DNA from: Agromyces marinus
Lineage (GTDB): Bacteria > Actinomycetota > Actinomycetes > Actinomycetales > Microbacteriaceae
DNA: 64,000 nucleotides
Assembly (NCBI RefSeq): GCF_021442325.1
Contig: NZ_CP087879.1
Location: forward strand, 1,302,001-1,366,000
Reading direction: 5' to 3'
Position 1 is the first letter of the stretch. Each line of letters begins with the position of its first letter. Positions 8,813 through 46,320 of this stretch are shown here, piece after piece. The notes under the pieces are model-generated. The model was not told the DNA's origin, did not search any database, and saw only the letters and a list, made by a program, of their open reading frames with translations. Made by a program: the position numbers and the translations under genes.

Positions 8813-13891
<5,079 letters not shown>

Positions 13892-14124
13892 AATCACTAC
13901 ACACACCACGTTTCAAGGCGGTGGTGTGTGGCCAAGGTGACTCGCGTCCACTCTGTGGTTCCCTTCAGACGGAAACACACACATAACAACACAGCGACAC
14001 CCCCACCCCACCAACCGCCCTCACGGGACGGCCGGCGGGACACCCGGGGGACCGAGACCACCAACACCCCACCCACCCCGCACACAGCCGGGGGTGACGG
14101 GTCGGGGAGCATGTTGGTTCTAGA

Positions 14125-14243
14125 GTTTCGGCGGCCATAGCGCGAGGGAAACGCCCGGACACATTCCGAACCCGGAAGCTAAGACTCGCAGCGCCGATGG
14201 TACTGCAGGGGCGACCCTGTGGGAGAGTAGGACACCGCCGGAC
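14125..14243 (+). rRNA. rrf: 5S ribosomal RNA
   Basis: Starts GTTTCGGCGGCCATAGCG and ends near GGACACCGCCGGACA; CGGCGG pairs with CCGCCG. It contains the conserved CCCGGACACATTCCGAACCC loop and the GGGAGAGTAGGACACCGCC 3' half. It is separated from 23S by about 230 C- and A-rich bases that hold no gene. Confidence 0.96.
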
Positions 14244-14253
14244 ACACATTGCA

Positions 14254-14302
14254 GAGTGGCCACCCACCGCGTTCAATTGCGAACGCCGGAGGGTGGCCAT
14301 TC
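14254..14302 (+). terminator. rRNA operon terminator
   Basis: A stem of GAGTGGCCACCC (14254-14265) with GGGTGGCCATTC (14291-14302), 11 of 12 paired, encloses a second small stem GCGTTC/GAACGC. It is followed by the T-rich TTCTTCGTT, just after 5S. Confidence 0.75.
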
Positions 14303-14380
14303 TTCGTTGACGCGGTCGCTCGACTGCACCGCGAGTACGGTTGAGTCCACAGGGCTCCCAGACAGGACGACAGGTACACC

Positions 14381-16135
14381 GTGAGCGACTCCACGCACGA
14401 ACCGGGCGAGCGCCGGAACGAACAGGGCGGTGACCGTCGAGACGCACGTCGCGGCGATCGTCCAGGGCACACGGAGGGCACCGGTCGCGGTGGCGACCGC
14501 AAGTCCGGAGGTGATCGTCGCGACGGCGGGCGGCCGTCCGGGCAGCGTGGCTCTGGTGAGCGTCGTGACGGAGACCGGTCCACCGGGCAGCGTCGCGACG
14601 GGAACCGGGAGTCCGGGCCGCGTCGTGACGGCGATCGGTCGGCCGGGCAGGCGCGCGCGGGCGGTCGGTCGTACGGGCAGCGTTCGGACGAACGCCAGCC
14701 GTACGGCCAGCGCCGCGACGGGGGGCGCGGGGAGCGTCGCGAGGGGGATCGTCGGGACGGCGACCGCTCGTACGGGCGCGATCGCGGCTTCGACCGACAG
14801 CAGGGCCGCCCCTCGAGCGACCGCGGGCAGCAGGGCGACCGTCCCTACGGCGACCGCAGGCATGGCGACCGGCGCCAGGACGATCGCAGGCAGGGCGAGC
14901 GTCCCTATCGCGAGCGCACCTCCGGCGACCGTCCGGGCGGGGAGCGCCCGTATCGGCCACGGAGGGACGACGAGCGCGGGTACGGTGCGCGCGACGACCG
15001 CCGGGGTCACGGCGGGCGCCACACCGACGGGCCCGCGGGCCCGCGCGAGCCGCGCCAGGGCGGCGGTCGCGTCGCAGGACGGCCCGCGCAGCGCGGGTTC
15101 GACCGTGGACGAGACCGGGACCGGGCACCGCACGAGCGCGCGCCCCGCGAGGCCGGGCACGGGGCCGCCGAACTCGCGCTCCGCCCGCGCCACGACGACC
15201 CGGTCGTCGCCGACCGGATCCAGCCACGAGACCTCGACCGCGCGGCGAGATCCGAGCTGAAGACGCTCTCGAAGGAGAACGCGGATTGGGTCGCACGTCA
15301 CCTCGTCGCGGCAGCCGAGGCCCTCGAGGACGACCCGGCACTCGCGCACCGGCACGCGCTGTCGGCGTCGCGCCGCGCAGGTCGCGTCGCCGTCGTGCGC
15401 GAGACGCTCGCGATCACCGCGTACGCGACGGGTGACTTCGCCCTCGCCCTGCGCGAACTGCGCACGTACCGGCGCCTGTCCGGCAACGACGACCAGATCG
15501 CCCTCATGGTCGACAGCGAGCGCGGCGTCGGCAGGTCCGACCGGGCGCTCGAACTCGGACGTTCGGTGGACCGGTCCGCGGTGCCCGTGCAGGTCCAGGT
15601 CGCGCTCGCGATCGCGATGTCGGGTGCACGACTCGACCTCGGTCAGCCCGAACTCGCGCTGACCGAACTCGAGATCGCGCAGCTCGACCCCGACCGCGCG
15701 TTCTCCTACAGCCCGGCGCTGTTCGCCGCGTATGCGGAGGTGCTCGAGGAACTCGGACGCGCGGACGACGCGGCGCGGTGGCGGTCGCTCACCGAGCGCG
15801 CCGAGGCCGCGCTGGAAGGCGCCCGTCCGGACTTCATCGAGGTGTTCTCGCTCGAGGACGACGAGGAGCCCGTCGCGGTCGACGCGCCGGCCGCGCCCCC
15901 GACCGGGTCCTCCGAGCCGGGCGCCGAGCCTGATGGCGAACCGACCGGAGCCGAGCCGACCGAGGACGAGCCGACCGAGGATGCGCCGTCGGAGGATTCC
16001 GCCGGCGCACCGGCCGATTCCGTCGACGCGGTCGAGGAATCCGACCCGGCCGATGCCATCGAGCCCGAGGTCGCGGAGATCCTCGCCGAGACCGCCCACC
16101 TCGACGGCGACCAGGCCGGCGCCGAGCCGGCATGA
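14381..16135 (+). CDS. R/D/G-rich low-complexity protein with TPR-like domain
   Basis: 584 residues in three parts. Residues 1 to about 260 are an extremely biased Arg-Asp-Gly-Gln tract built from degenerate units such as GDRRDG, QRRDGDR and RPYGDRR, probably disordered and nucleic-acid binding. Residues about 270-485 form a helical, tetratricopeptide-like domain (for example DFALALRELRTYRRLSGND and PVQVQVALAIAMSGARLDLG). Residues 490-584 are a Glu/Asp/Pro/Thr-rich acidic tail. Similar proteins sit upstream of the HAD-tlyA-nadK-recN genes in Microbacteriaceae and are annotated as hypothetical or TPR proteins (recollection). GTG 14381 is the start; the stop overlaps the next ATG (ATGA). Function unknown; a role in RNA metabolism is only a guess from composition. 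Confidence 0.8.
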   Translation: MSDSTHEPGERRNEQGGDRRDARRGDRPGHTEGTGRGGDRKSGGDRRDGGRPSGQRGSGERRDGDRSTGQRRDGNRESGPRRDGDRSAGQARAGGRSYGQRSDERQPYGQRRDGGRGERREGDRRDGDRSYGRDRGFDRQQGRPSSDRGQQGDRPYGDRRHGDRRQDDRRQGERPYRERTSGDRPGGERPYRPRRDDERGYGARDDRRGHGGRHTDGPAGPREPRQGGGRVAGRPAQRGFDRGRDRDRAPHERAPREAGHGAAELALRPRHDDPVVADRIQPRDLDRAARSELKTLSKENADWVARHLVAAAEALEDDPALAHRHALSASRRAGRVAVVRETLAITAYATGDFALALRELRTYRRLSGNDDQIALMVDSERGVGRSDRALELGRSVDRSAVPVQVQVALAIAMSGARLDLGQPELALTELEIAQLDPDRAFSYSPALFAAYAEVLEELGRADDAARWRSLTERAEAALEGARPDFIEVFSLEDDEEPVAVDAPAAPPTGSSEPGAEPDGEPTGAEPTEDEPTEDAPSEDSAGAPADSVDAVEESDPADAIEPEVAEILAETAHLDGDQAGAEPA

Positions 16136-33209: not shown

Positions 33210-33253
33210 ATCCGCTGCGGGCACGTGTGCACGAGCACCCCTCCGGATGCGGC

Positions 33254-33259
33254 TATGAT
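33254..33259 (+). promoter_or_regulatory. -10 element of tRNA-Pro
   Basis: TATGAT lies about 35 bases before the mature tRNA 5' end. No good -35 hexamer is visible at 16-18 bases. A short hairpin CTTCG/CGAAG lies between it and the tRNA. Confidence 0.45.
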
Positions 33260-33294
33260 TGACGAGTTGCCTTCGACGGAGACGAAGCGGGCAT

Positions 33295-33371
<77 letters not shown>

Positions 33372-33373
33372 GA

Positions 33374-33405
33374 AAGTCCCGGAAACTCAAGGGTTTCCGG
33401 GACTT
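33374..33405 (+). terminator. Terminator after tRNA-Pro
   Basis: Perfect 13-bp stem AAGTCCCGGAAAC / GTTTCCGGGACTT with a 6-base loop, three bases after the tRNA CCA end. Only a weak T-rich tail (TCCTCGTT). Confidence 0.78.
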
Positions 33406-33486
33406 CCTCGTTGGAAGCGAGGCTATCGACTCAACGGAGCAGGACCGTGGAGTCCTCGCTGGAAGTCGACGTCGGTGGACGTGGGC

Positions 33487-34371
33487 TCACGTGGCGGTCG
33501 CGTCGGTCAGCCCTCCACGTGCCGAATCCGCCCGGGCTGTGTCGGAGGCCCACGCGGCCGCACAGGCCGCGTCCCAGTACTCCGTCTGCGCTGCCGCTCC
33601 GTCGGCTGCACGCGACGGGCTTCCCATGCCCACGATCACCGACAGGGCCTCCGAGTTGGCGAGCATCCCACGGAGCGCCAGACGATGCGCCCCCACGCCG
33701 CGTTCCCGTGCGAGTGCCGCGAGCGCTGGGAGGCGCGCCGGGAGGTCGCGAGCGTGCGCGGGACCGCCGAGGGGCGAGAAGGCGAAGAACGCCAGGCCGA
33801 GGTGCTCGGCGCAACGGAGCTCCGACGTGGCATCGCCGGCGACGAGGCGGTTCTGAACGGCGGTCAGTCGGCACGACGAACGTGCCGCCTCGATCTGAGC
33901 CACGGAGGCATTCGAGATTCCGATCGCGCCGATCTTGCCTTCGCGCCGCAAGTCGTCCAGGGCGCCGAAAGCTTCTTCGAGGTCTCCGCCTTCGTCGGCG
34001 CGGTGGAGGTAGTACAGGTCGAGACGCTCGCGATTCAGGGAACGAAGGCTCGCGTCGACGTCCCGCCGCAAGCGGTCGGGTGTGTTCTCGACCGCCCACG
34101 TCGTCGGACCGGTGCGGAAGTGGCCGCCCTTGGTCATGATCACGGCACCTTCTCGCCCGCGAAGCGCCCCGGCGAGGAGGTGCTCGTTGTGAAGGTCGTC
34201 ATCGACCGTGGCATACGCTCGTGCCGTATCGAAAACACGCACCCCGGCCTCATATGCGGCGCGGATCGTGGCGACCGCGTTCGCGTCGTCGCGCAGATCC
34301 GCGGTCGAGAAGCGTCCGCAGCCTTGCGCAACGCGACCGCGGAGGAATGCGGCTGTGATCGAGCCGGTCAT
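33487..34371 (-). CDS. Aldo/keto reductase
   Basis: 294 residues of the AKR (beta/alpha)8 family. The catalytic tetrad can be placed at D48 (VFDTA), Y53 (ARAYA), K81 (VIMTKGG) and H123 (YYLHRAD); GISNASVAQIEAA and VIVGMGSPSR follow in order. Members of this family include sugar 1-dehydrogenases acting on L-fucose and related sugars, as well as general oxidoreductases, so with the isomerase-like gene nearby a sugar role is likely but not proved. The ATG overlaps the stop of the adjacent sulfatase (ATGA), so the two form an operon. Confidence 0.88.
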   Translation of the reverse strand: MTGSITAAFLRGRVAQGCGRFSTADLRDDANAVATIRAAYEAGVRVFDTARAYATVDDDLHNEHLLAGALRGREGAVIMTKGGHFRTGPTTWAVENTPDRLRRDVDASLRSLNRERLDLYYLHRADEGGDLEEAFGALDDLRREGKIGAIGISNASVAQIEAARSSCRLTAVQNRLVAGDATSELRCAEHLGLAFFAFSPLGGPAHARDLPARLPALAALARERGVGAHRLALRGMLANSEALSVIVGMGSPSRAADGAAAQTEYWDAACAAAWASDTARADSARGGLTDATAT

Positions 34372-35867
34372 CGAGGCAGCGGACCGCGGATGAGCGGGCT
34401 CATTTCCCGCATGCGATGGATAGGGGGTGTCGTCTCAGAGACGACGTACGTCCAGAGCTCACGCTGATTCGGGAACGGGTCCTCGAAATACGCCAGCCAC
34501 TCCTCCAACTTCGCGTGGAGGCGCGCCTGGACCTCTGCAGTCCCAGGAACCCCGGGTAGTGGGATGCGCCCGAAGTGGTTGTCGAGCTGATGAGTGTCGT
34601 CGGAGCGGCGGAACAGGGTATCCATGCGCCGCAGCAGCACGGTGCGGCCGACGTCCGACTCCGCATGCGGTTCCGAACCGTCTGTGCGGTCGATGTTCTC
34701 GGTCGAGTACGTCCACTCCTTGGTGTAGACGCCTCGCCACGGGGTAGTGAAGTAGAAGAGGGGCGCTGACTCGACGACGTCGTCGTCCTCGTCGCGGATC
34801 GCTGCCGACAGGTCCTTGCCGTGGACATGCTCGGGCACGTCGAGCCCCATCAGCCCGAGCAGCGTCGGCATGAGGTCGATCGTCCCCACGATCAGTTCGG
34901 ACGTGCGCGCTCGCACCTGCCCAGGGATCGACATGATCAGGGGTACGCGTGCCGACACGTCCTCGGGGCTGGACTTGTGCCAATGGTTGTTGAACGCGCC
35001 GAAGGTCTCGCCGTGGTCGCTCGTGTACACGATGATCGTGTTTTCACGCACGCCGCGCTCATCAAGCGCTGCAATGACTCGGCCGACGTTGGCGTCGACC
35101 TCGCTGCAGAGGGCTAGGTAGCCCTGGGTCATCAGGCGCGTGCGCTCGTTGACCGGGACCGTGGGGCGAAGGGTGAGAGCATCCGGGTCGTAGAGGTCCT
35201 TGAACTCGTCAGGCGCGTCGAACGAGGTGTACTTCGCATCGTCTCCGCCGTTGTGGTTGTGCGGCGCGTGGTACGAGACGAACAGGGTGAACGGGTCATC
35301 GACGCTCTGGTTCTCGATGAAGCGCAGGGCCTGATCGGTCTGCCCTTCCACCTCCCAACAACCGAAGTGCACCTTCTCGTCGCCGTCCCAGAAGAAGGAG
35401 TTGTCGGGGTCGTAGTTGACCGCGCAGTTGTTCGACAGGAATTCGTCATCGAAGCCGTGGCGATCCGGTCCGGCCGGGATCGGGCGGTTCCGGTCTCCAC
35501 CGTACAGGTGCCACTTGCCGACATACCCGTTGCGGTATCCGTGGCGCCGGGTGACTTCGGCGAACGAGTCACCGAGGTCTGTCGCCAGGCGCCGGTCGTT
35601 CGTGAAGCAGTTGTTCCACAGCGGGTGCACGCCCGAGATGAGCATGCTCCGCGCGGGCGTGCAGACGGGCGAGTTCGAGACCGCGTGATCGAACAACAGG
35701 CCCCGTTCGGCAAGTCGATCGAGGTGTGGGGTCTTCACGTCGCTGAGCCCGTACGCACCCAGCATGTCTCGCGACTGCTGGTCGGAGAAGATGAACACGA
35801 GGTTCGGCCGCCGGGGGGATCCTGTCGTCGGTGCGGGCGCGTCGTGATCGTATATGAACCGGTTCAT
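34368..35867 (-). CDS. Sulfatase (type I, Cys-type)
   Basis: 499 residues of the alkaline phosphatase/sulfatase superfamily. Metal ligands in FIFSDQQSRD (D29), the formylglycine signature C-T-P-A-R with C69 in SPVCTPARSML, GKWHLYG (Lys/His) and YTSDHGE (Asp/His) are all present. No signal peptide: the N-terminus MNRFIYDHDAPAP is hydrophilic, so it acts in the cytoplasm. The Cys type needs a formylglycine-generating enzyme, which is not in the window. ATG 35867 has GGGAGG upstream. The first four codons lie inside a palindromic LacI-type operator. The sulfated substrate is unknown, probably an imported oligosaccharide. Confidence 0.92.
   Translation of the reverse strand: MNRFIYDHDAPAPTTGSPRRPNLVFIFSDQQSRDMLGAYGLSDVKTPHLDRLAERGLLFDHAVSNSPVCTPARSMLISGVHPLWNNCFTNDRRLATDLGDSFAEVTRRHGYRNGYVGKWHLYGGDRNRPIPAGPDRHGFDDEFLSNNCAVNYDPDNSFFWDGDEKVHFGCWEVEGQTDQALRFIENQSVDDPFTLFVSYHAPHNHNGGDDAKYTSFDAPDEFKDLYDPDALTLRPTVPVNERTRLMTQGYLALCSEVDANVGRVIAALDERGVRENTIIVYTSDHGETFGAFNNHWHKSSPEDVSARVPLIMSIPGQVRARTSELIVGTIDLMPTLLGLMGLDVPEHVHGKDLSAAIRDEDDDVVESAPLFYFTTPWRGVYTKEWTYSTENIDRTDGSEPHAESDVGRTVLLRRMDTLFRRSDDTHQLDNHFGRIPLPGVPGTAEVQARLHAKLEEWLAYFEDPFPNQRELWTYVVSETTPPIHRMREMSPLIRGPLPR
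35854..35867. promoter_or_regulatory. LacI-type operator overlapping sulfatase start codon
   Basis: Perfect 14-base palindrome ATGAACCGGTTCAT containing the sulfatase ATG on the minus strand. The central CGGTT/AACCG core matches the LacI-family consensus. A near copy lies at 36001. Confidence 0.65.
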
Positions 35868-35990
35868 GAGGATGATCCTCCCACAGCTTCATTCGACATG
35901 GGGGGTCACAGGGCCCTTGGTTGTCAGCAATCTGGCCATGCATCGCTCCTCCAGTTCGAGGTGGGTATATGCGATCGCGGCGGCATCTGC

Positions 35991-36012
35991 TACATTTTCG
36001 TGAATCGGTTCA
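35991..36012 (+). promoter_or_regulatory. -10 and LacI-type operator of the importer operon
   Basis: TACATT (35991-35996) is followed after four bases by TGAATCGGTTCA (36001-36012), one base different from the operator at 35855-35866. The operator would cover the transcription start of the binding-protein operon, a position suited to repression. No strong -35 was seen. Confidence 0.6.
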
Positions 36013-36052
36013 TTGCGACCGAATCCCTGTCCAAGCAAAGAAGGTTGTCACA

Positions 36053-37378
36053 GTGGCCACTTCACCATTGACCCCCCGCCGGCTTGTCGCCGGCGCCGGC
36101 GCGGTCGTGCTCGCCATCTCACTCGCCGCCTGCTCCGCGAGTGACCCCAGCTCCGACGACTCCGACGCCTCGACGCTCAGCGGTGAGATCCGCGTCGGGA
36201 TGATCGCGTCCCTCGCTCCGCAGTTCGAGCGGTACGCCGAGGAGTTCGAGGCGGACTTCCCCGACATCGACGTCACCGTCGAAGCCGTTGCGGAGTCGCC
36301 CGCCGACTACATCCAGCAACTCGCGACACTGAACCTCAGCGACTCCGTTCCGGATGTGCTGTTCAACACCGGCGGGCTCAACCAGACGCTCGATGCGAAT
36401 GGCTTGCTGTGGGACATGTCGGAGTGGCTGGATGAAGGCCGATCGGGCCTCGACGCAGCCAGTTTCGCGCCCAACTTCCTCGGTCTGTTCCAGGGCGACG
36501 ACGGTCGCACCACAGGCCTTCCGGTCAGTGCCGACAGCGGCGTCGTGACATACAACATCGCACAGTTCGAGGAGTACGGCGTGCCGCTGCCGACCGAGGA
36601 CTGGACCTACGAGGAGATGTACGACGCCGCACGCCAGATCACCGAGGGGTCCGGTGGCGATGTCTACGGCATCGTCACTCCTCTCGCTGTGGCCGAAACC
36701 CCCTTCCAGTGGTATCCCGTTCTGCGCGCCTACGGCAGCGAGATGTACGACGCCGACGCCGATGAGTTCGTGTTCGCAGACGCTGCGGGCATCGAAGCGT
36801 GGACGACGCTGCTGGAGCCGTACACCGAGGAGTTCGGCGTGCCGTACTCAGCGCTCGCGAACGACCCGGGCAAGAACCTCTTCCCGAGCGAGCAGGCAGC
36901 CATGGAGGTGTCTTCGACCGCTCGCATCGCCGCACTTCGCGAGCAGATGCAGAGCGACTGGGACGTCGCCCCGATGCCTCTCATCGACGGTGTGCGCACC
37001 ACCGGCGGGGGTGCGTACTCGCTGTCGCTGAGCGAGAAGTCCGACAAGAAGGACGTCGCGTGGGAGTTCCTCGCGTGGTTCTACTCGGTCGAGGGCGGAT
37101 TCGAGGTCGCCAAGGACGACGGGATCATCCCCGCGACCACCGACGGCATCGAGAACGGTACCTGGCAGCAGGACCCGCCGCCCGTGCCTGCGAGCTTCGT
37201 CCCGACCGTTCAGACGTCGATCGAGGACGCGATCCTGCAGAAGCCGTACCCGGCCGACGTCGCACCGGAGGTGCTGCCGGCGCTTCAGGAAGCGATCCAG
37301 AAGGTCATGCTGCGTGACGTCGCCATCGATGTGGCGTTCACGGAAGCCCAGGACTCGCTGAACGCACTGCTGCGGTAA
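36053..37378 (+). CDS. Carbohydrate ABC transporter substrate-binding lipoprotein
   Basis: 441 residues, family 1 solute-binding protein. N-terminus RRLVAGAGAVVLAISLAAC gives a twin-arginine-like start, hydrophobic core and lipobox LAAC with the lipidated C27. The mature part begins after a Ser/Asp-rich linker with SGEIRVGMIASLAPQFERYA and contains PDVLFNTGG and GLPVSADSGVVTYN, as in oligosaccharide-binding proteins. GTG 36053 has AAAGAAGG eight bases upstream. First gene of the importer operon; the stop overlaps the first permease start (TAATG). Confidence 0.93.
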   Translation: MATSPLTPRRLVAGAGAVVLAISLAACSASDPSSDDSDASTLSGEIRVGMIASLAPQFERYAEEFEADFPDIDVTVEAVAESPADYIQQLATLNLSDSVPDVLFNTGGLNQTLDANGLLWDMSEWLDEGRSGLDAASFAPNFLGLFQGDDGRTTGLPVSADSGVVTYNIAQFEEYGVPLPTEDWTYEEMYDAARQITEGSGGDVYGIVTPLAVAETPFQWYPVLRAYGSEMYDADADEFVFADAAGIEAWTTLLEPYTEEFGVPYSALANDPGKNLFPSEQAAMEVSSTARIAALREQMQSDWDVAPMPLIDGVRTTGGGAYSLSLSEKSDKKDVAWEFLAWFYSVEGGFEVAKDDGIIPATTDGIENGTWQQDPPPVPASFVPTVQTSIEDAILQKPYPADVAPEVLPALQEAIQKVMLRDVAIDVAFTEAQDSLNALLR

Positions 37379-38322
37379 TGACAGACACGCGCGCGACTCA
37401 GCGCATCGTCACTCGTCCGGGCGCGGGGAACACCCCGCGCCCGGCGGGCCGGCGCGCGCACCGCTTCGACGTCGTCGCCGCGTGGGGGATGCTCACCCCT
37501 GCGGTGGTGATGTTCCTCACGTTCGTCATCGTTCCCGCGCTGGTCGGGATCGGACTCAGCTTCACCGAGTGGGACTTCTTCAGGCCGCCCGTCTTCGTGG
37601 GCTTCGACAACTACACCCGGCTGGTCTCCGATCCCGACGTCTGGCAGGCGCTCGGCGTGACGATCCAGTACGTCGTGCTCGGCGTGATCCCCACCGTCCT
37701 CATCGGCTTCATGATGGCCGTGCTCATCAATGCCAATATGCCCGGCGTTCCGGTGCTGCGCGTGCTCTACTTCGTTCCGGTGGTGCTCTCGGTCGCGGTC
37801 TCCGCCGTGTTGTGGTCGTTCATGTACGACCCCCGGCAGGGCCCGATCGCCGCGTTGTTCCGAGTGGTCGACGTTCCGCCCGTCGACTTCCTCAACAGCG
37901 AGGTGCTCGCCCTGCCATCGCTCGTTCTCATGATGATCTGGCTGGCCCTGCCGATCGTGATCATCTTCTATCTGGCAGGCCTGCAACGGGTGCCCGAGGA
38001 CATCTACTCCGCGGCGGCGCTCGACGGCGCCGGCACTTGGCGCATGCTCTGGTCGATGACGTGGCCGAACGTCATGCCGACGACGTTGGTCGTCGTCGTG
38101 CTCCAGATCATCAACTTCGTGGCCAACTCACTCGACGTGGCGCTGATCATGACCGGTGGCGGACCGCTCGGGGCGACACGGAGCCTGTCGCTCTATGCGT
38201 ATGAACAGGCCTTCATGTCTCAGAACGTGGGCTACGCCAGCGCACTGTCGATCTTCCAGCTCCTGCTCATCGTCGGGATCATCGCCCTCGGGCGCGTCCT
38301 GGGATCGAGGTCATTCCGATGA
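37378..38322 (+). CDS. Carbohydrate ABC transporter permease (MalF-like)
   Basis: 314 residues with six predicted membrane helices after a basic N-terminus. The EAA loop reads IYSAAALDGAGTWRMLWSMT (contact with the ATPase). The ATG overlaps the binding-protein stop and the end overlaps the next permease (ATGA). Belongs to the MalF/UgpA group; pairs with the next gene to form the channel. Confidence 0.93.
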   Translation: MTDTRATQRIVTRPGAGNTPRPAGRRAHRFDVVAAWGMLTPAVVMFLTFVIVPALVGIGLSFTEWDFFRPPVFVGFDNYTRLVSDPDVWQALGVTIQYVVLGVIPTVLIGFMMAVLINANMPGVPVLRVLYFVPVVLSVAVSAVLWSFMYDPRQGPIAALFRVVDVPPVDFLNSEVLALPSLVLMMIWLALPIVIIFYLAGLQRVPEDIYSAAALDGAGTWRMLWSMTWPNVMPTTLVVVVLQIINFVANSLDVALIMTGGGPLGATRSLSLYAYEQAFMSQNVGYASALSIFQLLLIVGIIALGRVLGSRSFR

Positions 38323-39143
38323 AACCCATGACCATGCGCTACGGCCGCTACACCACCATCGTCGTGTTCGGGCTGATCATCGCCTTCCCGCTGCTGTACC
38401 TCCTGTCGGGGTCCCTGATGTCATTCCAGGAGATCTCGCAGTACCCGCCGAAGCTCGTGCCGAGCGAACTCATCTGGCAGAACTACGCGGACGCGTGGGA
38501 GTACCTCACCCCGCGGACCGTGCTGAACACGTTCATCTTCGTGATCTCGGTCCTGGTGCTGCAGCTCGCGATCTGCCTGCCCGCGGGCTTCGCGCTCGCG
38601 AAGATCCCGATCCGCGGCACGGGACTGCTGCTGGCGATGTTCATCATCCCGATCTTCCTGCCTGCGAACCTGACACTCATCCCGACGTTCATCGTGACGC
38701 TCGAACTCGGCCTCGTCGGTTCGTTCGCCGGCCTGATCCTGCCCGTGGTGGGCCACGCGTCGCTGGGCATCCTGTTGTTCCGCCAGTTCTTCGCAACGTT
38801 CCCGGGCGGTCTGATCGAGGCTGCGCGTCTCGACGGCGCCGGGTGGTTCCGCACGTTCTTCTCGATCGCGCTGCCACTGGCCAAGCCGGTCATCGCGTCG
38901 TACTCGGTCGTGACGTTCCTGACGGCGTGGAACATGTACATCTGGCCGCTCGTCGCGGCGCCCGGTCCCGACACCCGCGTGCTCACGCTCGCCCTCGCGC
39001 CGCTGGCGCAGGGGGATTTCAGCAACATCTCACCCGCGGTGAGCTTCGCGGCAGCGGTGGTCGCCATGATCCCGGTATTGCTCGTCTTCGTGCTGTTCCA
39101 GCGATGGTTCACCCGGGGAATCGTCGGCTCTGGACTCGAATGA
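38319..39143 (+). CDS. Carbohydrate ABC transporter permease (MalG-like)
   Basis: 274 residues, six membrane helices, EAA loop LIEAARLDGAGWFRTFFSIA. Belongs to the MalG/UgpE group. It starts within the stop of the upstream permease. No ATP-binding gene follows, so the importer most likely uses a shared MsiK-type ATPase encoded elsewhere, as is usual in actinobacterial CUT1 systems. Confidence 0.93.
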   Translation: MKPMTMRYGRYTTIVVFGLIIAFPLLYLLSGSLMSFQEISQYPPKLVPSELIWQNYADAWEYLTPRTVLNTFIFVISVLVLQLAICLPAGFALAKIPIRGTGLLLAMFIIPIFLPANLTLIPTFIVTLELGLVGSFAGLILPVVGHASLGILLFRQFFATFPGGLIEAARLDGAGWFRTFFSIALPLAKPVIASYSVVTFLTAWNMYIWPLVAAPGPDTRVLTLALAPLAQGDFSNISPAVSFAAAVVAMIPVLLVFVLFQRWFTRGIVGSGLE

Positions 39144-39204
39144 CCCCTACCGCGACCGACCACGGGCGCGTCCTGCACGCGCCATCCCTTCGAAAGGTTC
39201 CACG

Positions 39205-40725
39205 ATGACCGCGGATGACAGGCCCGACATCATCTTCCTGATGACGGACCAGCAGCGCTGGGACGCCCTGGGCGTCCACAACCGCCTGGTCAAGACTCCC
39301 CACCTCGATCGCCTGATCGAGTCTGGGATCCTCTTCCCCCAGGCGACCTGCCAGGCGCCGATGTGCGTGCCCAGCCGTCACTCGCTGATGACCGGGACGT
39401 ACCCGTCGCAGAACGGTGTCCGCTCGAATGAAGCGGCCACGCCGGGCGACGACGCGATCGTCGCTCCCGTGCTCGCAGAGGCGATGCGCGACGCCGGCTA
39501 CCTCACGGCGGGCTTCGGCAAGACCCACTGGGGTCGAACCCCCGAAATCCCATCGACCCGTGGGTTCGACGTGCGGGTCGTCGGGACGCGCGATCTCGGG
39601 ATCGAGGTCGGAGCCGTCGGCTGGCAGGAGGAGGAGGACCCCGATGGTCGTGCGGCCTATCTCGAGATGACGCGCGGCTACGGCCCCGGAGAGGAGGAAC
39701 CGGTCGGGTACATCGGGGCCACGTCGACGATCCCTACCCGGAACCATCCCGACGGCTGGATCGCCGAGCGTGCCCTCGAGTGGCTCGACGGTCCGGATCT
39801 CGAAACCGACAAGCCGTTGTTCTTCTACCTCAGCTTCGTGAAGCCCCATGCGGGCCACAACCCCGCCGCGGAGTTCGAGGCGCTGTACGACATCGACGAG
39901 ATCCCCGATCTCGAGACGCCTCCGTGGGACGAGTCGCGTTACGATCACATCCGGGTTCGAGACGACAACTCGCACTTCCTCGGGGCCCGCAGCGAACGGT
40001 GGCGTGACGCGTGGCGGGGGTTGACTCCGCGCGAGCGTCGGTACGCGACCCTGCGCTACTGGGCGAACTGCAGTTGGTTGGACTCCCTGTTCGGCAGAGC
40101 GCTCGACCGACTTGCGGTGCGAGGCCGTCTCGCCAACGCGCTCATCGTGTTCGCCAGCGACCACGGCGAAATGCTCGGCGAGCGCAACTTCCAGTTCTCC
40201 AAGTACTGCCTCTACGACAGCAGCGTGCGCGTGCCGCTGGTCCTTTCCGGCACGGCCATCGCCTCGGGGCTCCGGGGGACTGTGGACGATCGTCCCGCTG
40301 CCCTCGTCGACATCTACCCGACGATCGCTCAGGCGGCGGGTTTCGGCATCCACGCGAGCGCCGCGGGTGCTTCGCTGCTCGAGCCGGCCCGCCGGGCGGG
40401 GTCGTTCGCCGAGATGCACGAGCCCGCACCTGCGTGGATGTGGCGCACCGCTCGCTACAAGCTCATCGCGTTCGTCGACCCGGAGAGGTCCGGGGCACAA
40501 GGCGAGCTCTACGACTTGCAGGCCGACCCTCGAGAGTGGCACGACCTGTACCACGACCCGGCGCACCTCGCGGTGCGCGCGGACCTCATGGCAGAGCTCA
40601 TCGCCCATATGGCGGCGACCTCCGCCGCTTCACCCACCCACGGCGCGCTCGGCGCAGCACCCGTCCTCGAGGCGGTACACGCCTTCGCAGGCCACCAGAA
40701 CGACAGCGAGACCAGCCATGAGTGA
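39205..40725 (+). CDS. Sulfatase (type I, Cys-type)
   Basis: 506 residues. Seen: IIFLMTDQQRWD (metal Asp), the signature C-V-P-S-R with C54 in APMCVPSRHSLMTG, GKTHWG, and FASDHGEMLGE near residue 316. The canonical CxPSR motif implies formylglycine maturation. No signal peptide (MTADDRPDIIFLMTD), so intracellular. It is clearly different from the leftward sulfatase in signature and insertions, suggesting another sulfate position or sugar. GAAAGG precedes ATG 39205; the end overlaps the glycosidase gene by 8 bases. Confidence 0.93.
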   Translation: MTADDRPDIIFLMTDQQRWDALGVHNRLVKTPHLDRLIESGILFPQATCQAPMCVPSRHSLMTGTYPSQNGVRSNEAATPGDDAIVAPVLAEAMRDAGYLTAGFGKTHWGRTPEIPSTRGFDVRVVGTRDLGIEVGAVGWQEEEDPDGRAAYLEMTRGYGPGEEEPVGYIGATSTIPTRNHPDGWIAERALEWLDGPDLETDKPLFFYLSFVKPHAGHNPAAEFEALYDIDEIPDLETPPWDESRYDHIRVRDDNSHFLGARSERWRDAWRGLTPRERRYATLRYWANCSWLDSLFGRALDRLAVRGRLANALIVFASDHGEMLGERNFQFSKYCLYDSSVRVPLVLSGTAIASGLRGTVDDRPAALVDIYPTIAQAAGFGIHASAAGASLLEPARRAGSFAEMHEPAPAWMWRTARYKLIAFVDPERSGAQGELYDLQADPREWHDLYHDPAHLAVRADLMAELIAHMAATSAASPTHGALGAAPVLEAVHAFAGHQNDSETSHE

Positions 40726-43105
40726 CGTCGACACGCGACAGACCATCCGCCCACAGGACAGCCCTCTCAGCGATCATGCCCTCCTCGAAGGAGTGCAGAT
40801 CGAGCCCCACGGCCGCTCTGGCCTGGACGGCCGGCCGGCCGGTGCCGTGCGCCGCGCGCTCGAACCGACGTTCCCCGGCGCGTTCTGGTTGGCAACCGAC
40901 GCCCGGCCCGACCAGCACGCGGGGTTCGTCGCCGACGTCGTGGTGCCGGAGGACTGCTCGTACCGACTCGCCGTCCAGGCGTCGGGCGCCTTCCGCCTTC
41001 GCATCGACGCCGAGACCGTCGTGCATGGGCCGCTTCGGTATGCGCCGGCGCTGCCGGAGTATCACGAACAGCGCATCGACCTCCCGGCCGGGCGTCATCG
41101 GCTCGCGTTGCATGCGCAGGCCGAGCTCCTGACGACCCGCATGTCGGCGGCGGTGCCGCCCTTCGCGTGGGTGCGGCTCATTGCCGATGACGACGTCGAG
41201 GTGTCGCTGAGCTGGCGTGGCCGCGAGCTGGAGGAGTATCACGCCACCGGCTTGCGCGTCAGTCCGCTGCTCGGCTGGGTCGAGTGGCAGGCACTCCCGT
41301 TCGTGGGCGCGTGGTGGGACGACGATCTGCATGCCGGGTGGTCCGAGACCCGGGCGGTCGATCTCTCGGTGCTCGGACCCGAAGCCACGTGTGCCGACAT
41401 CGCCTTGCCCGCATGGCGGACGCATTCGCTCGCACCGCAGTCGTCCGGGGTCTATCGCGACACCTACGTCGGGTACGAGTTCGACGACATCGGCACCCAG
41501 TTCCTGCTCGCGGACGACGACCCCGACCCGCTCGATGACCTGGACGGAAGGTGGTTCCGCTACGACCTGGGCCGCGTTCGAGTGGGATCGGTCGCTTTGA
41601 GGGTGGCCGCGTCCGCGAAGGCGGAGATCACGGTCGGATTCGCCGAGCGATTGACGCCAGATGGTCGCCCGTCACCCGTCGTCGCCCTCTCAGCTGGTCC
41701 GACGCGCATGCTCCAGCACTTCACGGTCGATGCCGGCGAGACGACGATCGAACCGTTGCAGTCCCTCGGCGGCCGCTACGTCGAGGTGCGGGTGCGCGGT
41801 GGACTGGACAGCGACATCAAGGACGCCCGCTTCGTCGAGCGGGACTTCCTGGGGGCGCCTACCGGGCGCTTCGAGTCGGGCGACCCACTGCTCGACCGCA
41901 TTTGGATGACGGGGCTGGACACGCTCCGGGCGACGGCTGAAGACAGTCTCATCGACTCCGTTCGTGAGCGCGGTGAGTGGGTTGGCGACGTTGTCTCGAG
42001 CGCCCTGCACCTGTTGAGCGCAGGTTGGGGGGATGTGCGTCTCGTACGCCGCGCATTGCTGCACTCCGCTGCCGGGGCACGTGACGACGGGCTCGTCTCC
42101 GGTTGCGGTCCAGGGGAAGTGCTCTACCTCGGCACCTATGCCGCGCAGTGGGTGACGGCGTGCCTCAACGTTGCGCGGGTCGAAGGGGACATCGGCATCC
42201 TCCGCGAACTCGAGGAGAGTGCCAGCGCGAATGTCGATGCTCTCCTCGCCTGTATCGATTCCGATGGCGACCACCGCCTCCCTTGGTCGTTCGTCGACTG
42301 GGGGTACGGCGTTCCGCAGGACCAGCCCAACCTGGCCGTGCTGTCCCATGTCCACCAGGCGGTGCGGAGTTGGCGGCGCTGGCTCGAACTCCTCGGACAG
42401 CATGACCGGGCAGCGGTCTACGGGGTCGACGAAGAGCGGCTCGCGCGGGTGCTCGCTCGTTGGATGGGCGACCCCGCCAACCCCTACCACTCATGGACCC
42501 TCGGTGTTCAGAGCGGCATCGTCGATCCCGAGGGCGCGGCGGAGTACATCCAGAAGCACGTCTCGCGGGCGTTCCCGTTCGACCGCACGGCGGACAGACT
42601 TCGCGACCCAGGACAGGTGCGTCCCGGCGCGGTCACACCGTACTTCACGAACTACTCCTTTCCCGTCCTCCTCGACACGGGTCTCGGCTCCGAGGTCGCG
42701 GAGATGTGGCGCACCGGTTGGGGCTGGATGCTCGAGCGCGGAGCCACGACCTGGTGGGAGGTCTTCGACGAGCGGTGGAGCCAATGCCATTACTGGGGTG
42801 GCGCGCCGACCTGGCAGATGTCGCGGTGGGGCCTCGGGCTGCATCTCGACGTCGATCACGAAGGACCGGTCGCCGACCTCCGCGTCAACGACCTCGGGCG
42901 GGACCGGGTCTCGGGCCGCGCGCATCTCGCCGGTGGCCGGACTGCCGAGGTGGAGTGGGAGAAGACCGGCGGTGATTCCATCCGCTACCGGATCGACTTG
43001 TCGGACGCGATCCGCCTCCGCGTGCATGGTCGGGTGCGGCACTTGTCGCGCGGCGGTCATGAGTTCGAGATGCAACGCCAGGGAAGCAGCGCGCTCTACC
43101 GATGA
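40718..43105 (+). CDS. GH78-like (alpha-L-rhamnosidase-related) glycosidase
   Basis: 795 residues. An N-terminal beta-rich region (about 1-380) is followed by an (alpha/alpha)6 six-hairpin domain and a short C-terminal beta domain. The segment DSVRERGEWVGDV (about 413-425) aligns with the acid-residue motif of GH78 enzymes (usual form C-P-Q-R-x-E-x-x-G-W-x-G-D), and TTWWEVFDERWSQCHYWGG (about 682-700) with their second active-site motif. No signal peptide, so intracellular. The match is partial and the enzyme may act on another deoxy sugar or be a new GH78-related group. It overlaps the sulfatase at its start and lacI by 10 bases at its end (convergent). Confidence 0.8.
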   Translation: MSDVDTRQTIRPQDSPLSDHALLEGVQIEPHGRSGLDGRPAGAVRRALEPTFPGAFWLATDARPDQHAGFVADVVVPEDCSYRLAVQASGAFRLRIDAETVVHGPLRYAPALPEYHEQRIDLPAGRHRLALHAQAELLTTRMSAAVPPFAWVRLIADDDVEVSLSWRGRELEEYHATGLRVSPLLGWVEWQALPFVGAWWDDDLHAGWSETRAVDLSVLGPEATCADIALPAWRTHSLAPQSSGVYRDTYVGYEFDDIGTQFLLADDDPDPLDDLDGRWFRYDLGRVRVGSVALRVAASAKAEITVGFAERLTPDGRPSPVVALSAGPTRMLQHFTVDAGETTIEPLQSLGGRYVEVRVRGGLDSDIKDARFVERDFLGAPTGRFESGDPLLDRIWMTGLDTLRATAEDSLIDSVRERGEWVGDVVSSALHLLSAGWGDVRLVRRALLHSAAGARDDGLVSGCGPGEVLYLGTYAAQWVTACLNVARVEGDIGILRELEESASANVDALLACIDSDGDHRLPWSFVDWGYGVPQDQPNLAVLSHVHQAVRSWRRWLELLGQHDRAAVYGVDEERLARVLARWMGDPANPYHSWTLGVQSGIVDPEGAAEYIQKHVSRAFPFDRTADRLRDPGQVRPGAVTPYFTNYSFPVLLDTGLGSEVAEMWRTGWGWMLERGATTWWEVFDERWSQCHYWGGAPTWQMSRWGLGLHLDVDHEGPVADLRVNDLGRDRVSGRAHLAGGRTAEVEWEKTGGDSIRYRIDLSDAIRLRVHGRVRHLSRGGHEFEMQRQGSSALYR

Positions 43106-44127
43106 AGACCGACCGACGTGGGCAGCGACGTGTGGCGCACGACGAGTTCGGGGGAGTACACGCGCCGGGAATGCTCGTGGCCTGGCCCCGCGGCGATCTC
43201 CGCGACCGTGAGCTCCACCGCGGCCTGGGCGATGAGTTCGACCGGCTGACGCACCGTCGTCAACGGCACCTGCGCGGTCGCGGCGAACTCGATGTCGTCG
43301 TGCCCGATGAGGCTCAGGTCATCGGGAATGCGGATGCCGCCTTCCCGGGTGATCTCGTGCATCAGCCCTATGGCCAGCCGGTCGTTCGCTGCGAAGATCG
43401 CGTCGGGGCGGCGTTCGGGCGGCGTCGCGAGTACGCGCGCTCCCACCCGCCGACCTTCGTCGATCGAGAGAGTGACGGTCGACAGGTAGTCCATGCGCAC
43501 CCCGGGCGTCTCGGCTACGGCGCGCGCGGCACCGTCCACACGCCCGCGGACCTGGTGGATCGGGCCGCCGGCGACGAGGATGTCACGCCGCCCCTGTTCG
43601 ATGAGGTGTCGCACGGCGACGTAGCCGCCGTGCTCCGCGTCGGACTGGACGGTGCTGAAATCTCCATCGGCGTCGGCTACGCCGAGGAGCACGATCGGGG
43701 TGCCGCTGGCGTGAATGGAACGCACGCGTGGGGTGACTCCGCCGATCGGCGCCAGCATGATCCCGCCGACGCGCTGCTCTTCGAACAAGTCGAGATAGCG
43801 GGTCTCGCGCTCGGCCCGCTGCGAGCTTCCGCCCAGCAGCACGGAGAAGCCGGCCTTCTCCGCGGCGTCCTCGGCCACTTCGGCGAGTGTGTTGAAGAAG
43901 GAGTCGTAGCCGCTCAGAACGAGCAGACCGAGGGTCCTGCTCGAACCCGAGGAGAGCTGCCGGGCGTGGCTGTTGGGCACGTAGTCGAGGTCGCGCATCG
44001 CAGCGTGCACGCGCGCAACGAGTTCGGGCTTCACCGAAGTACGACCGTTGAGCACATTGGACACGGTTCCCACCGAGACTCCCGCAGCGCGAGCGACGTC
44101 TCTGATGTGAACCCGCGCGCGCGACAT
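43096..44127 (-). CDS. LacI family transcriptional regulator
   Basis: 343 residues. The N-terminal helix-turn-helix reads IRDVARAAGVSVGTVSNVLN, with hinge SHARQLSSGSSRTLGLLV and a periplasmic-binding-protein-like sensor domain (IFAANDRLAIGLMHEI, SLIGHDDIEFA). ATG 44127 is preferred because GGGAGG lies 8 bases upstream; ATG 44160 adds 11 residues without such a site. The TGAAYCGGTTCA palindromes at 35855 and 36001 are its probable operators. The inducer is presumably a breakdown product of the imported sugar. Confidence 0.93.
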   Translation of the reverse strand: MSRARVHIRDVARAAGVSVGTVSNVLNGRTSVKPELVARVHAAMRDLDYVPNSHARQLSSGSSRTLGLLVLSGYDSFFNTLAEVAEDAAEKAGFSVLLGGSSQRAERETRYLDLFEEQRVGGIMLAPIGGVTPRVRSIHASGTPIVLLGVADADGDFSTVQSDAEHGGYVAVRHLIEQGRRDILVAGGPIHQVRGRVDGAARAVAETPGVRMDYLSTVTLSIDEGRRVGARVLATPPERRPDAIFAANDRLAIGLMHEITREGGIRIPDDLSLIGHDDIEFAATAQVPLTTVRQPVELIAQAAVELTVAEIAAGPGHEHSRRVYSPELVVRHTSLPTSVGLHR

Positions 44128-44181
44128 CGAACTGGCCTCCCGTCCTGCCCGCACCGCCATGGCTCGACGCGGGCGCTCTTC

Positions 44182-44187
44182 ATTATG
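44182..44187 (-). promoter_or_regulatory. Possible -10 element of lacI-type gene
   Basis: Minus-strand CATAAT, 54 bases upstream of the regulator's ATG. No paired -35 or operator copy is visible in the 161-base gap between the divergent genes. Confidence 0.35.
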
Positions 44188-44288
44188 TCCGGCGCGAGGC
44201 CGAAATCGCGCCGGGACCGCGCCGCGTCCCCTGCCGACAACCCATCCTCACATCGTGGCATGCGCCGCGACAACGAAAGAAGGCACGC

Positions 44289-45731
44289 ATGACGACCGAA
44301 CTGACCGAGTTGAGCACGGTGCTCGCTCCGAAATCGCGGCGCAAGCCGAGGATCGGATTGGTCGCGGGCGGGCTCGGGACATACTGGCCGCAGTTCCCGG
44401 GATTGCTTCCGCAACTGCGCGAATCGTCCCGGTATGTGTCTGAACGGTTCGCGGAGATGGATTCGGATGTGACGGATGTCGGATTCATCTCCGACGCCCA
44501 GGAGGGGGCGGCCGCCGCGGAGGCATTGAGGAAGGCTGATTGCGACCTGATCGTGCTCTTCCTGACGACGTATCTGACGAGCTCGATGGTACTGCCGATC
44601 GCGCAGCGGTCGGGCGCGCCGGTGCTGGTCATCGACCTTCAGCCGACGCAGAAGATGGACCATGCATCGTTCGATACCGGTGCATGGTTGGCATACTGCG
44701 GCCAGTGCCCGGTCCCGGAGGTGGGGAACGTGTTCATGCGCGCCGGCATCGAGTTCCGGTCGGTGTCAGGGTACCTCCGGCAGGAGTCTGCGTGGAAACG
44801 GATCGAGCAGTGGATCGCAGCCGCGCATGTGAGGGCGGCGCTCCGGCATGCCCGTCACGGCCTCATGGGGCACGTGTATCCGGGGATGCTCGACGTCTCG
44901 ACCGACTTGACACTGCTGCCGGTGACATTCGGGTCGCACGTGGAGGTATTGGAGTTCGACGACCTGCGCGTGCGGGTGGATTCCGTCACCGAGCGAGAGA
45001 CTGCGCAGAGGATGGAGCTTGCGCGCCGAGTCTTCACACTCGACCACTCGGTCGTGGAGGAGGACTTCGCCTGGGGTGCGAAGGTATCCGTCGGCTTGGA
45101 CCGACTCGTGGACGACTTCGACCTGGACTCGCTCTCCTACTATCACCGCGGCCTCGACGGGGAGCAGCACGAACGGCTGGGTGCCGGCATGATCCTCGGT
45201 GCTTCATTGCTGACCGCCCGGGGCATACCGGCGACGGGCGAGTACGAGTTGCGCACGACGCTCGCGCAGCTCGCGACGCAGGTCGTCGGTGCCGGTGGGT
45301 CGTTCTGCGAGATCCAGGCCTTGAACTTCGAGGACAACGTGGTCGAGATGGGGCACGACGGACCGGCCCACCTGGCCGTCTCATCTCGTGACCCGCTGCT
45401 GCGCGGCCTCGGGGTGTTCCACGGCAAGCGCGGGTGGGGTGTATCGGTCGAGTTCGACGTGCGGCACGGCCCGGTCACGCTGCTGGGACTCGGGCAGAAC
45501 CGCGACGGGTCGTTGTCGTTCATCGCCTCTCAGGGCGTGGTGGTTCCCGGCCCGCTGCTGGAGATCGGGAACACCACGAGTCGGGTGGACTTCGGTCGCG
45601 ATCCGGGAGAGTGGGTCGACGCCTGGTCGGCGACCGGCGTCGGGCACCACTGGTCCCTTTCGCTCGGACACCGCGGCACCACCTATCGCGCGGCCGCGTC
45701 GCTTCTGGGTATCGACTTCCGGATGGTCTGA
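44289..45731 (+). CDS. L-fucose/L-arabinose isomerase family protein
   Basis: 480 residues, like the L-fucose/L-arabinose isomerase superfamily (KPRIGLVAGGLGTYWPQFPG at the start; DCDLIVLFLTTYLTSSMVLP; GAGGSFCEIQALNFEDNVVE; C-terminal GHHWSLSLGH). Such proteins convert aldoses such as L-fucose or L-arabinose to ketoses with Mn2+; the exact metal ligands could not be fixed here and many relatives are uncharacterised. GAAAGAAGG lies 5 bases before ATG 44289. It is divergent from the regulator and probably acts in the same sugar pathway. Confidence 0.8.
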   Translation: MTTELTELSTVLAPKSRRKPRIGLVAGGLGTYWPQFPGLLPQLRESSRYVSERFAEMDSDVTDVGFISDAQEGAAAAEALRKADCDLIVLFLTTYLTSSMVLPIAQRSGAPVLVIDLQPTQKMDHASFDTGAWLAYCGQCPVPEVGNVFMRAGIEFRSVSGYLRQESAWKRIEQWIAAAHVRAALRHARHGLMGHVYPGMLDVSTDLTLLPVTFGSHVEVLEFDDLRVRVDSVTERETAQRMELARRVFTLDHSVVEEDFAWGAKVSVGLDRLVDDFDLDSLSYYHRGLDGEQHERLGAGMILGASLLTARGIPATGEYELRTTLAQLATQVVGAGGSFCEIQALNFEDNVVEMGHDGPAHLAVSSRDPLLRGLGVFHGKRGWGVSVEFDVRHGPVTLLGLGQNRDGSLSFIASQGVVVPGPLLEIGNTTSRVDFGRDPGEWVDAWSATGVGHHWSLSLGHRGTTYRAAASLLGIDFRMV

Positions 45732-45735
45732 ACCC

Positions 45736-45837
45736 ATGCCTGTCACCGTCGTCGCAGTCCTCACCGCCAAGCCGGGTCAGGGCTCGGCCGTCATCGAGTC
45801 GTTCCGCGCAGTGTCGCCGCTCGTTCGAGCAGCCTGA
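45736..45837 (+). pseudogene. Truncated antibiotic-biosynthesis-monooxygenase-like fragment
   Basis: 33 codons reading PVTVVAVLTAKPGQGSAVIE and FRAVSPLVRAA, the first beta strand and helix of the ABM (putative quinol monooxygenase) fold, then a TGA. Complete members have about 95 residues; the remaining two thirds are absent in every frame downstream. It starts four bases after the isomerase-like gene. It looks like a 5' remnant cut at the edge of the accessory region. Confidence 0.6.
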
Positions 45838-46053
45838 ATGAGTGGATTCAGCGGCGAAACGACGGCCACTCCTTCAGAGCATTGCGGGGATCTCGTAGCT
45901 GGGTTCGCCGCGGAGCCTGAACGCGTCGGCGATGAGCGCCCGGGCGTGTAGATCCCGATCGTGCGTTCTGACGCGGCAACGGCGGCGTGACGACCGGGGC
46001 AGTCCGACGTACGATCGAAGAACGCCGGCCGGGGCGCTTCGAAGGGAGCAGCA
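45838..46053. other. Gap at the right edge of the accessory region
   Basis: No gene seen. It holds the junction after the truncated monooxygenase fragment and, near its end, TACGAT (46010-46015), a possible -10 for the small gene at 46054, with GGGAG eight bases before that gene. I saw no repeat of the tRNA-Pro end and no transposase remnant. Confidence 0.4.
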
Positions 46054-46320
46054 CTGGCCACGTGGCATCCGATCCTCGCCGCCGAAGAGCCCGAACCCGG
46101 CCGGTGGCGACTCGTCGACTCGCTCGGCCGCGAATACGGCCTCGTGAGCATCGTCCGCGTCGACGGGCAGGTGCGATTCCGCGCCGAGTTCGAGGGAAGG
46201 CTCCTCGGGTACGGCACGACGTTGCGGGGCGCATGCGAGCGCGTGCACCACGCGTTCGTGCGTTCCCACGGGCCCGGCGAATGGCGGGGATACCCCGATT
46301 TCTCTCGGGCGGAACGGTGA
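46054..46320 (+). CDS. Small conserved hypothetical protein with probable CTG start
   Basis: 88 residues beginning ATWHPILAAEEPEPGRWRLV after the initiator, with DSLGREYGLVSIVRVDG, TTLRGACERVHHAFVRSHGP in the second half. Small proteins starting MA-x-WHPILAA are common in Microbacteriaceae (recollection). In frame there is no ATG, GTG or TTG between the upstream stop at 45988 and this region; CTG 46054 lies exactly where the family methionine is expected, with GGGAG five bases before it. Probably a stand-alone gene; function unknown. Confidence 0.6.
   Translation: MATWHPILAAEEPEPGRWRLVDSLGREYGLVSIVRVDGQVRFRAEFEGRLLGYGTTLRGACERVHHAFVRSHGPGEWRGYPDFSRAER

Follow-up and report, generated by a model that had tools for sequence, protein, structure and literature searches.

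The 64,000-nucleotide window of the Agromyces marinus chromosome that we investigated (NZ_CP087879.1, positions 1,302,001 to 1,366,000) contains nine genes at 33487-45731 that encode two sulfatases, parts of a CUT1 importer, a GH78-like enzyme, an aldo/keto reductase, an AraA-fold isomerase and a LacI-family regulator. We think it fairly probable that this island is an acquired system for the uptake and desulfation of a sulfated glycan or glycoside with a terminal L-rhamnose, under induction by rhamnose. The initial annotation of this DNA had suggested a deoxy sugar that could be L-rhamnose or L-fucose. As far as comparisons of sequence go, the choice narrows to L-rhamnose, which we favor because operator-like sites are common to the island and the organism's own rhamnose loci, because the LacI protein is akin to the regulators found there, and because the GH78-like protein keeps residues of a rhamnose-binding site; fucose and fucoidan find no support. 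All nine genes were confirmed at the coordinates given in the initial annotation, and its grouping of two unlike Cys-type sulfatases, CUT1 parts, GH78-like enzyme, reductase, isomerase and LacI regulator is borne out by profile matches and, for the isomerase, by an AraA fold. The features, in window coordinates, are as follows.

33295..33371, plus strand: tRNA-Pro(GGG), the left border of the island (ARAGORN)
33384..45986: variable island of 12.6 kb (GC content and comparison with congeners)
33487..34371, minus strand: aldo/keto reductase, 294 aa (PF00248, 141 bits), its gene sharing 4 nt with the end of the SulA gene
34368..35867, minus strand: SulA, S1-type sulfatase with motif CTPAR (PF00884, 183 bits)
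35855..35866: TGAACCGGTTCA, a putative operator of the RhaR type that overlaps the start of SulA
36001..36012: TGAATCGGTTCA, a putative operator of the RhaR type, 40 bp ahead of the likely start of the binding protein
36053..37378, plus strand: CUT1 substrate-binding lipoprotein (SBP_bac_1) with lipobox LAACS (PF01547, 96 bits; hydropathy)
37378..38322, plus strand: CUT1 permease 1, UgpA-like (PF00528, BPD_transp_1)
38319..39143, plus strand: CUT1 permease 2, UgpE-like (PF00528, BPD_transp_1)
39205..40725, plus strand: SulB, S1-type sulfatase with motif CVPSR (PF00884, 141 bits)
40718..43105, plus strand: divergent GH78 alpha-L-rhamnosidase-like enzyme, 795 aa (PF17389, Bac_rhamnosid6H)
43096..44160, minus strand: LacI-family regulator, RhaR type (profile, tree and comparison of paralogs)
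44289..45731, plus strand: AraA/FucI-superfamily isomerase, of a family found in actinobacterial rhamnose loci (relatives, alignment and model)
45736..45837, plus strand: truncated gene of 33 codons, the start of a small ABM-like gene (comparison with the rha loci of genomes G054 and G040)

Both putative operators sit in the divergent promoter between SulA and the binding protein. They belong to a class of 12-mers, TGAANCGNTTCA, that occurs at five places in the genome of 3.2 Mb, whereas the reversed control pattern occurs at one. Two of the five are those of the island promoter, a third lies at the rha operon (243605) and a fourth between a rhaS-type ATP-binding cassette (ABC) operon and a LacI gene (1975156). 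The fifth (1880912) has a GC center, lies in a predicted open reading frame among genes that by eye are of the translation type, and is probably a chance occurrence. No site of this class is present in eight other stretches of the same genome around sulfatase loci (L101-L108). Relatives of the island isomerase allowed a wider scan: 89 loci were collected (the 80 best relatives plus nine more, with at least one genome entered twice, as L009 and L143), and in the 81 that were scanned the class is present in 20 of the 21 rha loci of actinobacteria versus 2 of 60 other isomerase loci, with zero matches in one shuffle of each. Near the rhaS-type operon at 1.97 Mb we also noticed, by eye, a transposase-like open reading frame (L171:13137-14315).

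The LacI protein points in the same direction. The genome contains 12 LacI matches, one of them under the cut-off, and among the ten own paralogs that can be aligned the nearest to the island protein are the two LacIs at the rhamnose sites (46% and 45% identity; the next reaches 37%). All three have the recognition helix SVGTVSNVLN. In the phylogeny the island LacI falls into a clade with 17 of 25 LacIs from RhaEW loci (support 99/94; inner fork 100/96). Taken with the operator-like sites that are shared with the organism's own rhamnose loci, the island regulator may be of the actinobacterial RhaR type. The host's rha locus at about 238-247 kb comprises RhaB, RhaEW, RhaI, RhaM, a LacI and a GH78, with the pathway genes at about 238-244 kb; its RhaB scores 432 bits, under the equivalog cut-off of 528.

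The third line comes from the GH78-like protein, whose start we refined to 40718, so that its gene overlaps that of SulB by 8 nt. It matches PF17389 with 51.2 bits (cut-off 24.5) and PF05592 barely over the cut-off (22.3 versus 22.2 bits), and the Pfam domains usual at the N- and C-termini of GH78 enzymes have no match in it. Eleven rhamnose-site residues are named for KoRha, a GH78 enzyme of solved structure, in the text available to us (PMC4690510). According to our alignment nine of these positions are kept, eight of them identical (W421, D424, Y474, F525, W528, E681, H691 and W693, with E681 aligned to KoRha Glu486) and the ninth, the catalytic acid, present as E417 where KoRha has Asp222; SaRha78A and BsRhaB likewise have Glu there. 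The two positions not kept are Trp335, which is Pro in the island protein, and Tyr498, which is unaligned. A profile made from the protein and two relatives strongly matches solved alpha-L-rhamnosidases, a score to which the relatives contribute. By profile and rhamnose-site residues the protein looks like a putative alpha-L-rhamnosidase. Its relatives are few. Our searches used samples of the order and of the phylum that have genomes in common and were taken from larger groups, and statements of absence apply to the sampled genomes; with the own genome set aside, one of 395 order genomes has a relative at E 1e-20, which is 28% identical across residues 333-767, and none of 395 in the phylum sample has one at E 1e-15. 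Plasmid records gave two partial matches (24-26% identity) and viral contigs none. The organism's own canonical GH78 in L103 is 24% identical to the island protein.

SulA and SulB are only 28% identical to each other, and both have the features by which S1 formylglycine sulfatases are recognized, a PF00884 domain (cut-off 25 bits) and a CxPxR maturation motif. The formylglycine-generating enzyme (FGE) family has two PF03781 matches in the genome, a strong one (276 bits, 2883470-2884342) and a weaker one (107 bits); sulfatase matches number 12 in total. At E 1e-60 a SulA relative occurs in one of 395 genomes (G254, 62% identity), where its neighbors at L187:11148-19511 are a binding protein of the Opp type (SBP_bac_5) and a protein of 502 aa that has no Pfam match. 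SulB has no relative at E 1e-75 in 395 genomes, again with the own genome set aside, and three matches at 31-32% identity among plasmid records. Choline sulfate, raised in the initial annotation as the kind of small ester that would speak against a glycan pathway, is not supported as the substrate: SulA and SulB reach 147 and 163 bits, far from the choline sulfatase equivalog cut-off of 433 (TIGR03417). The aldo/keto reductase has a single solved relative at E 1e-25, AKR13B2. For the binding protein, the GTG at 36053 is the probable start codon, in a frame that is open from 35921. In a hydropathy scan, which is not a trained signal-peptide predictor, strong hydrophobic N-terminal segments appeared only in the binding protein and the permeases. 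This agrees with the earlier claim that the enzymes lack signal peptides, and the anatomy of the island, with a lipobox binding protein, permeases and enzymes without hydrophobic N-termini, is consistent with import before desulfation.

From these features we infer a route in which the substrate, the position of its sulfate, the direction of regulation and the order of the steps are all conditional. A RhaR-like LacI repressor would occupy the two operators in the divergent SulA/importer promoter and would be released by rhamnose or a derivative of it. The CUT1 system, with an ATPase presumably encoded elsewhere, would import a sulfated rhamno-oligosaccharide or rhamnoside. The host FGE would mature SulA and SulB, which would then strip off the sulfate within the cytoplasm. 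Release of L-rhamnose by the GH78 enzyme would come next; we place this step after desulfation because the GH78 pocket is expected to require a non-reducing end free of sulfate. The freed rhamnose would enter the host's RhaM-RhaI-RhaB-RhaEW pathway, and the AraA-fold isomerase would be an accessory enzyme of rhamnose loci that was carried along. If this were the case, the island would offer a directly testable case of desulfation within the cell, with L-rhamnose as the inducer to start from.

Several observations weigh against this reading. A shared cluster, which the initial annotation had named as a result of neighborhood searches with the GH78 protein and the sulfatases that would support its idea, did not appear in any other of the genomes sampled (396 each, own included), so that the association of the genes rests on one genome. 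The TGAANCGNTTCA class was chosen post hoc, after the sites in the island and rha promoters had been seen; CG-centered palindromes are common for LacI proteins generally, whose operators look alike, and no site of this type was found at the LacI/isomerase promoter. In the LacI phylogeny the island protein is on a long branch, 8 of the 25 RhaEW-locus LacIs lie outside its clade, and the sample is limited to LacIs from isomerase loci plus two from the own genome. The predicted structure of the GH78 protein is poor (mean pLDDT 40), and the SulA relative in G254 has an ABC system of the Opp type as its neighbor instead of rhamnose genes. Neither an ABC ATPase gene nor an endo-acting enzyme is present among the nine genes and their products, and the rha operon already has RhaI, which leaves the isomerase without an obvious job. 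With regard to the ATPase, its gene is usually absent from the locus in CUT1 systems of actinobacteria.

An alternative explanation is that the system serves for small rhamnosides that carry sulfate, for instance those of plant flavonoids or saponins, or a sulfated rhamnolipid, and scavenges their aglycone-linked rhamnose after desulfation, and that no fragment of a polysaccharide is involved. If this were the case, then it would be understandable that no polysaccharide-cleaving enzyme was recognized among the nine island proteins. CUT1 importers, however, usually carry oligosaccharides, and a second locus of the same genome, which combines GH78 and GH38 with three sulfatase matches, looks suited to a complex glycan. 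The available text on KoRha describes a roomy outer chamber for the aglycone (PMC4690510), and flavonoid rhamnosides are described as GH78 substrates in abstracts. On balance we consider a small rhamnoside as the sole target unlikely.

The closest parallel to the pairing of a sulfatase with a GH78 enzyme comes from Formosa agariphila P36, where, according to the available part of the description, the ulvan polysaccharide utilization locus (PUL) H encodes an S1_25 sulfatase fused to GH78, which takes the sulfate off the non-reducing-end rhamnose before the GH78 domain cuts the rhamnose (PMC8511951). In both cases sulfatase and GH78 are physically coupled, and the overlapping genes of the island resemble a split version of the fusion; the two steps have the same order in the route proposed here. 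The Formosa S1_25 domain (6hr5) is among the solved relatives of both sulfatases (E 2.7e-33 for SulA and 3.9e-27 for SulB) but tops neither list. In Formosa, however, sulfatase and GH78 are parts of a single multimodular protein, and the Bacteroidota PUL that encodes it also has lyases and GH105, as far as the description goes; in the island they are encoded by two genes that overlap, an ABC importer is present, control is of the LacI type, and none of the nine genes encodes a lyase. Ulvan contains disaccharide units with rhamnose-3-sulfate, as stated in the same text (PMC8511951), and one could assume that the island is part of a marine-type system for the degradation of ulvan or fucoidan. 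Among the nine proteins there is neither an ulvan lyase nor a member of GH105 or GH3 nor a fucosidase (lyases, GH105 and GH3 were not looked for elsewhere in the genome), and the regulation indicates rhamnose and not fucose. We regard this explanation as highly improbable, and ulvan, which the initial annotation had listed as a candidate, is not supported specifically.

Two further groups of systems resemble the proposed rhamnose-inducible route in part. In Actinomycetales the LacI-type regulator RhaR co-regulates uptake and catabolism of rhamnose and rhamno-oligosaccharides, and the likeness to the island extends, in kind, to palindromic sites, an ABC importer (there rhiLFG) with alpha-L-rhamnosidases, and RhaB and RhaEW; the available description of these regulons, unlike the island, contains no sulfatase (PMC3870299). 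Verrucomicrobiota loci for fucose- and rhamnose-containing sulfated glycans have GH78 and GH106 rhamnosidase genes amid sulfatases as well as rhamnose catabolism, but the parts of the report at hand describe large PULs and breakdown in a microcompartment, whereas the island has nine genes and would depend on the RhaEW route (PMC8857213). The same source terms sulfated deoxy-sugar glycans hard to degrade, and the degraders described in the material available belong to the Bacteroidota and Verrucomicrobiota, and also to the Pseudomonadota. We found no paper in the open-licence literature on an actinobacterial, importer-based, RhaR-linked system of sulfatase and GH78; the earlier statement that no actinobacterial system with this gene set is described is not contradicted, and on its sequence the island would be a new arrangement of this kind. 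More tentatively, and with considerable doubt, we suggest that it may represent a RhaR-controlled, import-first route for sulfated rhamnosides that is cytoplasmic throughout, in which sulfatase and divergent GH78 are the split form of the Bacteroidota fusion and the AraA-fold isomerase adds an isomerization beyond RhaA and RhaI, the latter two as given in the available description of rhamnose catabolism (PMC3870299).

The isomerase has no Pfam match, and its weak matches in NCBIfam do not name it: 32 bits to the sulfoquinovose isomerase SftI, versus a cut-off of 700 (NF048012), and 27 bits to the L-arabinose isomerase AraA, versus an equivalog cut-off of 622 (PRK02929). An AlphaFold model (mean pLDDT 86) has the L-arabinose-isomerase fold, with a TM-score of 0.85 to 4r1o, and residues E318, E341, H356 and H454 align with residues of E. 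coli AraA that we take to be its metal site. These four are invariant in all 25 rows of the alignment and are also present in a 48% paralog. The likeness to AraA (4r1o, 4f2d) in fold and metal-site residues contrasts with an identity of about 17%, a score far under the AraA cut-off, and relatives that lie near rhamnose genes. The relatives (best 80 of 122 kept) are 72-87% identical over their best segments and come from Actinobacteria and one Chloroflexi bin; within the genus, 10 of 60 genomes, the own included, have the gene. Without a comparison with random loci, a rhamnose gene (GH106, RhaEW, RhaB, RhaI, RhaM or RhaS) is found in the flank of 86 of the 89 loci, in many of them GH106 alone, the three others being L063, L078 and L083. 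RhaI accompanies the isomerase in 17 of the 89. A sulfatase is near it in a single locus (L081), so that the isomerase finds no support as a usual partner of sulfatases. In L081, which has no TGAANCGNTTCA site, the sulfatase lies by an FGE gene (13532-16045) and next to a rhamnose-type locus with two copies of the isomerase. The gene order in G054 and G040 is isomerase, a small gene that we take to be ABM-like, RhaM and RhaI. The isomerase end of the island looks like a fragment of a rha operon, since the relatives of the isomerase lie near rhamnose genes, the next gene is cut short, the host's own rha locus lacks an isomerase of this family, and the gene is single copy in the genome. These comparisons bring to attention an isomerase with the AraA fold that is conserved in the rhamnose loci of actinobacteria.

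The island adjoins tRNA-Pro(GGG), and its genes have a GC content of 0.64-0.70, as compared to 0.72-0.73 in the flanks. We compared it with the 20 kb beside the right flank taken from eight congeners; in four of them the left flank lies outside this 20 kb. In three (L134, L136 and L138) the left backbone stops at 33382-33384, just past the tRNA gene, the right backbone resumes at 45987-46005, and 4-9 kb of different DNA lies in between; in L133 the sole match to the left flank is 86 bases over the tRNA end. Because the congener backbones break off and resume here with other DNA between them, we read 33384-45986 as variable cargo at a tRNA hotspot, which was probably acquired. In these four congeners the cargo includes, by eye, carboxylesterase-like, SulP-like and glycosyltransferase-like genes. 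An integrative element at a tRNA gene would likewise be tRNA-adjacent and variable, but there is no integrase among the nine genes, and 33251-33490 and 45701-46150 have no exact direct repeat of 10-20 bases in common. The island DNA has no match among plasmid records. SulA and the reductase are on the minus strand in that order, and the binding protein, the two permeases, SulB and GH78 follow one another on the plus strand; the LacI gene is convergent with the GH78 gene, and the isomerase gene points away from it.

The varying cargo beside the tRNA gene, the truncated gene after the isomerase, the 88 of 89 isomerase loci without a sulfatase and the different context of the SulA relative could also be explained by a chance patchwork at a recombination hotspot. 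In this case a unit of sulfatases and importer that serves some unrelated ester of sulfate would have come to lie next to a cut-off piece of a rha operon (LacI, isomerase and broken gene), and the two would have no joint function. However, the rhamnose-type sites are located in the sulfatase/importer promoter and not by the isomerase, and the GH78 gene overlaps SulB and retains the rhamnose-site residues, which makes a mere patchwork quite unlikely.

Other parts of the genome also combine sulfatases with transport genes. L102 and L103 (2.278-2.310 Mb) contain the second sulfated-glycan locus, with the canonical GH78, GH38, a GDSL esterase, a ManD-type dehydratase, three sulfatase matches, CUT1 parts, Gfo/Idh, a DeoC/LacD-type aldolase, a PfkB kinase and a 650 aa protein (L102:10911-12863) that matches neither Pfam nor NCBIfam. 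Two more sulfatase pairs are found in L104 (2.652-2.672 Mb) and L101 (105-125 kb), one by an NMT1-type binding protein and the other by a CUT1 system and a LacI gene. The low-GC stretch of the window at 8813-14243 is an rRNA operon (16S, 23S and 5S).

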